Source: Modestobacter sp. DSM 44400
Lineage (GTDB): Bacteria; Actinomycetota; Actinomycetes; Mycobacteriales; Geodermatophilaceae
Direction of reading: 5' to 3'
NCBI RefSeq assembly: GCF_900107175.1
Contig: NZ_FNOZ01000001.1
Coordinates: 186,001-250,000, forward strand
Length of the DNA: 64,000 nt
Of the stretch, positions 14,076-15,188 are shown piece by piece. Under the pieces are notes generated by a model. The model searched no databases. It was not told where the DNA came from and was given only the letters and a program-made list of their open reading frames with translations. Both the position numbers and the translations under genes were made by a program. Each line of letters opens with the position of its first letter. Within the stretch, counting starts at the first letter, position 1.

Positions 14076-14141
14076 GATTATGGAGCTGGCGTGGCGACAC
14101 ACCGGCGGACGTCGGCGCGTCGGCACCGCAGCTCCATGATC
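14076..14141. repeat. 66-bp palindromic element, left copy
   Basis: It begins GATTATGGAGCTG and ends CAGCTCCATGATC, so its ends form a long imperfect hairpin. It is the same length as the copy at 15123-15188, and 50 of 66 positions agree in a gapless alignment by my count, with the disagreement concentrated at the centre. It lies 1 bp beyond the stop codon of the DUF559-type gene. No transposase or target duplication was seen. Confidence 0.75.
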
Positions 14142-14142
14142 G

Positions 14143-15037
14143 TCACCCGGGGACGAACTCGAGCGCGCGAGCCACCGTGGCGACCATCGGCTGCCACCGG
14201 CGGTAGACGTCGACGCCCGTGAAGTGCAGCAGCGTCCACTGGTGCTCGGTGAGCCAGTTGTGCCGATGCCGGTCGTCCCGCAGCTGGGTCGCGGTCATGT
14301 GGGCCTCGAGCCCGTCGAACTCCGCACCGACCCGCTGCTTGCGCCAGGCGGTGTCCATCTCCGGCCACGAGGCCGCGTCGACCACCCGCACCTGCAGCTC
14401 AGGGGCCGGCAGCCCGCCGTCGATGAAGCGCCACCGCATGCGGGACTCCATCGGCGAGGCCGCTCCGGGATCGGCGTGCGGACCAGCTGCCGCAACCGGA
14501 CCACGTCGCGCAGTCCAGCCTGAGCGAAGGCCGCCGCCGCCAGCTCGTCGGGGTCGCACGTCCCACTGCGGAGCGCCGCGTCGAGGCTGGCCAGGCCGTC
14601 GATCGGCGCGGACAGCCGGACGACGTCGCAGGCCGTTCGGGCGGGGGGTGTGCACCACACGCCGTCGACCAGGACGGCGTCGTCCGTGCCGAGGGACGAC
14701 GGGTGCACCTGGATGCCGGGCCGACTCCGGTGGGCCACCGACGGCGGCCCAAGGAAGTGCACCGTGTCGGTCGGGACGATGTCGAACTCGTGCAGTGCTG
14801 CGGCCGTGGAATGGCAGGCGACCAGGTCACCCCGATCACCAGGGCCGCCGCACGCACGGTCACACCGATCCGGTCGGGGAGCTCGGCGTCCACGAGGACC
14901 CCGCGCCACGGCGTGCGCCGCCAGCGGTCGGAGTGGACCAGCTGGCAGATCTCCCACTCGGTGTAGCGCTCTCGCGCCTGGGCAGTTGTGAACACCCCGC
15001 CCTGCTGGGCGATGGTGCGGTACAGGCTGAAGTCCAC
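14143..15037 (-). pseudogene. AbiEi/DUF559-type protein, disrupted by two frameshifts
   Basis: One protein is spread over three frames. The N-terminal part (GTG 15037) reads LYRTIAQQGGVFTTAQARE, the winged-helix start typical of AbiEi-like antitoxin-domain proteins. Near 14830-14833 (a run of four C on the plus strand) a base is missing, and the sequence goes on as VACHSTAAALHEFDIVP through ALRDVV-type helices. Near 14475 a second base is missing, and the sequence goes on as SPMESRMRWRFIDGG through GAEFDGLEAHM to a stop at 14143. The last part is the DUF559/very-short-patch-repair-like nuclease domain with its E-x-D/G-x-E region. A restored product would be about 297 residues. The gene lies exactly between two 66-bp palindromes. 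Whether the indels are real or assembly errors cannot be decided here. Confidence 0.75.
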
Positions 15038-15122
15038 CCGTGCACAGGGGAGCCCGGGACTGCCGCCGGGGGGCCCGTGCTCCGATCTGTGGACAGACGT
15101 CCCCGCTGTGGACGAGCGCGAT

Positions 15123-15188
15123 GATCATGGAGCTGCCGTGCCGACACGCCGCTGTGACTCGGCGGGTCGCCCCGCCAGGTCCATGATC
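15123..15188. repeat. 66-bp palindromic element, right copy
   Basis: It begins GATCATGGAGCTG and ends CAGGTCCATGATC and folds into a long imperfect hairpin. It is about 85 bp upstream of the start of the DUF559-type gene and 18 bp beyond the meaB stop. Orientation and length match the left copy at 14076-14141. Confidence 0.75.

Follow-up and report, generated by a model that had tools for sequence, protein, structure and literature searches.

Repetitive extragenic palindrome (REP)-like repeats are among the commonest repeats in bacteria, and the only dedicated enzymes that we know of for them, in the literature examined, are HUH transposases. Here we analyzed a 64,000-nucleotide stretch of DNA from Modestobacter sp. 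DSM 44400 (this whole stretch is hereafter called the window), in which an AbiEi-DUF559 gene is bracketed by two similar palindromes. PMC8266576 defines a REPtron as REP palindromes together with a RAYT/TnpA-REP transposase, and our units resemble REPtrons in that the gene is bordered by palindromes of the same class, cognate palindromes are dispersed between genes, the gene is mainly chromosomal and vertical, and enzyme and repeat diversify together. Unlike in REPtrons, the enzyme would be AbiEi joined to a PD-(D/E)XK nuclease instead of an HUH tyrosine transposase; the palindromes span 45–90 bp and lack a GTAG tag at the inspected ends, which are mostly GACGATCATG..CATGATCGTC; and the genomes examined hold tens of copies at most, not hundreds. 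IS200/IS605 elements likewise consist of a coding region with palindromic ends (PMC8266576), but our unit has no HUH transposase and, in the searched collections, does not travel on plasmids. With the AbiE type IV toxin-antitoxin system (AbiEi antitoxin; Rv2827c) the unit shares the AbiEi fold and inverted repeats near the promoter, and it differs in its C-terminal nuclease fusion, the second palindrome behind the gene and the dispersed copies. The predicted nuclease fold is that of the EDxHD homing endonuclease I-Bth0305I and of Vsr, from which the unit differs in being a free-standing chromosomal gene with no intron and with an AbiEi part fused to it.

The features of the unit are as follows (window coordinates):
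14076..15188, minus strand: whole unit, 1113 bp (1017–1160 bp in 14 relatives measured)
14076..14141, no strand: 66-bp palindrome on the 3' side of the gene, class B, GATNATGGAGCTG..CAGCTCCATGATC
14143..15037, minus strand: AbiEi-DUF559 (MTES_1575/Vsr-like) gene, from open reading frames (ORFs), Pfam matches to AbiEi_1, AbiEi_4 and MTES_1575 (all below cut-off), a split profile match and intact relatives
15123..15188, no strand: 66-bp palindrome upstream of the gene, also class B

Both elements are imperfect palindromes, with termini GATTATGGA..TCCATGATC and GATCATGGA..TCCATGATC; they share 76% gapless identity and were placed in one 68-nt repeat family. Each was folded as a single DNA strand and compared, strand by strand, with 200 dinucleotide shuffles, of which 0, 0, 1 and 0 folded as well (two elements, two strands each). 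The GTG start of the gene (15037) lies 85 bp from the palindrome at 15123, and a single base pair separates the stop (14143) from the end of the other palindrome (14141). The preliminary description of this DNA had given two 66-bp elements at these coordinates, folding into long hairpins at about these distances from the gene, and was right in each respect.

We took 82 loci of the AbiEi-DUF559 family, left out four that were cut short by contig ends, and scored a matched pair when the left and right palindrome arms agreed at at least 14 of 18 positions. By this fixed test, 55 of the 78 loci have a matched pair: 26 of 29 and 18 of 20 in two Geodermatophilaceae sets (44 of 49 combined), 10 of 26 in the rest of the phylum, and 1 of 3 extra loci in the window genome. 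Because palindromes had led to the loci that make up the alignment behind the profile (A1, four relatives), the finding and the 29-locus set are not independent; therefore, 20 loci lower in the list were added, in which palindromes were sought with no sequence assumption. The 20-locus and phylum sets were chosen from profile hits only. None of 65 control ORFs has a matched pair; these were what was left of 68 ORFs of at least 200 codons at ten loci, including the window, after removal of three positives that were AbiEi-DUF559 genes themselves. When left and right flanks were exchanged between phylum loci, 2 of 650 combinations matched. The preliminary description had named as contrary evidence the lack of a paired arrangement around DUF559 genes; instead, all 11 palindrome pairs less than 1.6 kb apart, among the matches listed, bracket a gene of this family. 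The anatomy of the unit is also constant: at 13 of 14 loci one palindrome lies 79–106 bp before the start, and at 13 of 14 the other is placed −13 to +7 bp relative to the stop.

The A1 profile matched in 111 of 112 Geodermatophilaceae genomes, with 2–15 matches per genome (20 candidates scored in each), and the gene was present in 90 of 246 genomes drawn from the phylum. At the best 30 Geodermatophilaceae loci, palindromes flank both sides in 25 and one side in 5, one of the latter being cut by a contig end. Inspection by eye of six loci in the window genome revealed pairs at the window, C92, C96 and C87, a single palindrome at C78 and none at C49. Named loci with pairs include those of eight Geodermatophilaceae records, Streptomyces sp. 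SCUT-3, Collinsella sp. 4_8_47FAA and an actinomycetote metagenome-assembled genome (MAG); in a ninth Geodermatophilaceae record, M. caceresii, one side is masked or unresolved. The Antrihabitans locus has no pair, and the pair in a Myxococcales MAG is weak. Four of nine loci from plasmid and phage collections passed the fixed test (two from Tsukamurella tyrosinosolvens, two from Arthrobacter); each of the two Tsukamurella units has its own class, whose palindromes were met at 11 and 19 places and in no records other than those of Tsukamurella. Taken together, these data establish well for Geodermatophilaceae that the gene is associated with private palindromes, and the association extends to other actinobacteria. 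At the Collinsella locus (L283), two palindromes of the same class stand on each side and resemble a small array.

Several other explanations were tried and rejected. Chance or generic terminators were rejected on the control ORFs, and an Rfam element on the lack of any match at the gathering score (two weak rows were at chance level). The nuclease domain alone does not bring a pair with it, as three large MTES_1575-domain proteins of the window genome (two at C51, one at C165) have none on inspection. An HUH transposase or known mobile element was rejected as well, no such domain having appeared in the scans described below.

Several palindrome classes can be told apart by the arm that follows a common ATCATG: A (54–56 bp, GCCGTGACCAC), B (the window), C (GGGTTGTTGC), D (AAGTTCGGGAAG) and others. 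Within a unit, left and right arms agree at 15–18 of 18 positions (15 units from six genomes, selected for having pairs), and palindromes of different units in the same genome agree at 9–12 of 18 (13 comparisons); each unit has a private class. The window unit itself lies between a gene with a YAAYGSN motif, which we take to be GGCT, and one with a GISGVPGVGKS motif, presumably meaB, and at this locus the class is A, B or D depending on the genus, with left and right always the same. Over 47 units, protein similarity and palindrome similarity are correlated (Spearman rho 0.39, reached in 0 of 2000 permutations); eight of the 55 units were left out, seven of them because the motif filter found no protein. 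On these sequence comparisons, palindromes and proteins diverge together. The two arms also co-vary within copies in a mixed class B set (0.727 versus 0.643 on re-dealing, 0 of 2000).

Copies that stand alone are dispersed, as the preliminary description had expected of its element. A blast search with the 66-mer detected two further full-length copies in the window genome, at C94 and C84, and there is another palindrome at C166. The pattern ATCATGGN{34,60}CCATGAT, some hits of which are chance matches within genes, was found in 70 of 112 Geodermatophilaceae genomes, up to 42 times per genome, and its reversed control in none. We placed 66 copies with a GC-frame gene finder written for this analysis. 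Of these, 53 are intergenic: 35 have co-directional neighbors and 18 convergent ones, whereas divergent neighbors were never seen. A further 12 fall within ORFs, where some are chance hits of the pattern, and one was left unassigned. For comparison, neighboring genes in the window are co-directional in 27 cases, convergent in 6 and divergent in 6. The closest stop codon is at a median distance of 24 bp; solitary copies lie mostly just 3' of stop codons. In annotated Tsukamurella DNA, one copy sits between the convergent ends of thiD and an HNH gene. Among the matches listed, complete class D palindromes occur in at least 10 of the 112 genomes, with 14 copies in G013, 8 in G059, 7 in G107, 5 in G058, 2 each in G060 and G054, and one each in G002, G004, G111 and G062. 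Eight of these ten genomes have a class D gene among the fetched loci, and G062 has a gene with mixed palindromes. In L261 and L262, one half of a solitary palindrome is kept and the other half is exchanged for a different GC-rich hairpin.

We then considered the protein. Scans with Pfam, NCBIfam, PHROG and PADLOC returned AbiEi, DUF559 and MTES_1575 matches and no transposase. The predicted fold of a family protein matches AbiEi (6y8q) and the homing endonuclease I-Bth0305I (3r3p), in a listing that speaks only for the fold families it contains, and the AbiEi match, by profile and by fold, covers the N-terminal two thirds. In a sequence search of the PDB, nothing stronger emerged than weak matches to nucleases (3hrl, E 4.5e-4, for alignment A2; 3r3p, E 1.4, for alignment A3). 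The protein is thus predicted to join an N-terminal AbiEi antitoxin part to a C-terminal nuclease of the Vsr/I-Bth0305I (EDxHD) type, in line with the small nuclease/antitoxin-like gene of DUF559/AbiEi type in the preliminary description. No AbiEii-like toxin gene was seen among the neighbors at six named loci and the window, or at the annotated Tsukamurella and Arthrobacter loci; none of these neighbors was run against a toxin profile. The earlier view that the unit lacks a transposase may be misleading in spirit, the bracketed gene itself being the best candidate for the enzyme.

A feature that the preliminary description had missed is that the window gene is not intact: it is broken into three frames in the draft assembly (pieces 14399–15037, 14295–15128 and 14143–14658), and the family profile match to it is split as well. 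The split may reflect mutation or an assembly error, between which the draft does not distinguish. If the split is real, palindromes are still present next to a gene that no longer works.

The preliminary description had proposed looking for empty sites in relatives. Some solitary palindromes are indeed missing from relatives: at the sites of L232, L241, L245, L235 and L240, the sequence continues with no palindrome in four, two, one, four and two relatives, respectively, but the intergenic DNA on either side is rewritten. At site S235, an insert larger than the palindrome that it carries (L235, L269) stands between direct repeats of about 12 bp, and the repeat is single in L260, L267, L268 and L270; the insert measures about 140 bp in G101 and about 900 bp in G102, and the other empty sites have no sharp ends. 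At two solitary copies of the window genome (C84:8680 and C94:13798), relatives have extra DNA with a gene, so a clean insertion is not demonstrable there and gain of the palindrome went with loss of sequence. A class B unit occupies a different locus in Modestobacter sp. VKM Ac-2982, VKM Ac-2985 and M. caceresii; G103 has no gene at this VKM-type locus and keeps a 40-bp hairpin matching the core of the left palindrome, which we read as decay after gene loss.

Matches in the plasmid collection were restricted to 5, 4 and 7 of 72,556 records, every one a large replicon; the phage collection gave one unverified contig among 50,697 records, and none was confirmed among viral contigs. A phage or plasmid origin was rejected on this near-absence. 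The gene lies mostly at conserved chromosomal loci and is mostly inherited vertically. The single "mobile or selfish module" of the preliminary description gives way to a gene family whose members each have their own palindrome class. The conserved loci, the near-absence from plasmids and phages and the lack of clean insertions give no sign that the unit itself moves. The PLSDB "plasmids" of T. tyrosinosolvens NCTC13231 (NZ_LR134446 to NZ_LR134468) carry purine, thiamine and gatA genes and resemble chromosome contigs.

The best single account, and one that we regard as probable, is a REPtron-like system of dispersed palindromes run by an unrelated enzyme; the analogy with REP elements drawn at the outset was a good one, the element being dispersed and its pairing tied to DUF559 genes. 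This account draws on features read from the DNA, namely pairing, a private class per unit, dispersal, co-divergence, the position after stop codons and the predicted fold, and would add binding, cleavage and copying or transposition to them. According to PMC7319586, AbiEi recognizes its own promoter through a pair of 23-bp inverted repeats there, to which it is reported to bind. In the account proposed here, two AbiEi-like parts would each bind one half of their own palindrome; the copy upstream would act as an operator, and the copy at the stop codon would mark the other edge of the unit. The nuclease might then nick or cut DNA at or beside cognate palindromes, and repair could copy or capture the palindrome into new intergenic sites, where copies would persist best directly 3' of stop codons. 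The gene would be passed on mostly vertically, with the palindromes changing in step with it. More tentatively, at somewhat under an even chance, a palindrome class kept and spread across the phylum by AbiEi-nuclease fusions could mean that REP-like repeats have had two independent enzymatic origins; in the second, an operator-binding protein of antitoxin type was joined to a homing-type nuclease and the operator became a mobile repeat.

Several observations weigh against the REPtron-like account. By the fixed test, 16 of the 26 phylum loci have no pair, and left/right swaps inside the 20-locus Geodermatophilaceae set match in 57 of 380 cases, because orthologous units share palindrome classes. 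The relative orientation of the two copies is inconsistent (28 direct, 17 inverted and 11 ties among 56). Within single classes the arms co-vary weakly, the observed value being reached in 42 (A), 89 (D) and 224 (C) of 2000 re-deals, so that in class C covariation is not clear. G058, despite its five complete class D palindromes, has no class D gene among the matches listed. No clean, sharp-ended insertion was found in the 25 genomes or sites studied, the flanks at empty sites being rewritten. Several Modestobacter species share the positions of many of their solitary class B copies, which are therefore old; activity is thus old or rare.

An autoregulated nuclease, with the upstream palindrome only an operator, the downstream one only a terminator, and solitary copies serving as terminators or as 3' hairpins of mRNAs that ordinary recombination spreads with no help from the nuclease, would fit the binding of AbiEi proteins to promoter inverted repeats (PMC7319586) and the placement of solitary copies after stop codons and never between divergent genes. 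A terminator need not match an operator, yet left and right share a class that differs from unit to unit, and the control ORFs lack such pairs, so we consider this explanation rather unlikely.

Homing would have the nuclease cut unit-free chromosomes and recombination copy the unit in, with the palindromes as tract edges. At the family loci examined, as in the window, the unit lies between genes with both palindromes whole, and there is no intron, intein or interrupted target; the unit neither sits inside an intron or conserved gene nor splits its own palindrome. Homing would also leave the dispersed solitary palindromes unexplained, and we judge it improbable. It is very improbable that some other transposase moves the palindromes as non-autonomous elements and that the DUF559 gene is a passenger captured by chance: palindrome-free sites do exist, and we know of no strand-transfer activity for this nuclease fold, but the association recurs with many unrelated palindrome classes in several orders, and the class tracks the DUF559 protein.

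In open-licence full-text literature, with subscription journals and preprints largely outside it, no title or abstract connects bracketing palindromes with genes for DUF559 or AbiEi-nuclease proteins, which suggests that the nuclease-repeat partnership is undescribed. A nuclease annotated as DUF559/AbiEi is here tied to private palindromes in Geodermatophilaceae and at loci from several other actinobacterial orders, giving a large unannotated gene family a testable function and accounting for dispersed hairpins behind actinobacterial genes. The units also offer dozens of natural protein-palindrome pairs for studying joint change of a DNA-binding domain and its site. On the more tentative reading of a phylum-wide class spread by AbiEi-nuclease fusions, each gene would have a private palindrome alphabet, so that one genome could hold four or more such systems in parallel.

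As for the genomic surroundings, the GGCT gene was found in 16 of 25 genomes searched, and at the best 30 loci the GGCT motif is present at 22 and both the GGCT and meaB motifs at 16. The GGCT-meaB interval is empty (29 bp) in G095, whereas that of G048 contains one palindrome, from a different class. Members of the family also occupy a second conserved locus, seen in L121, L123, L126, L127, L128, L130, L131 and L139 and showing several palindrome classes; its neighbors carry PGDCVFFA and GISN motifs and are presumably aspartyl-tRNA synthetase-like and aldo-keto-reductase-like genes.
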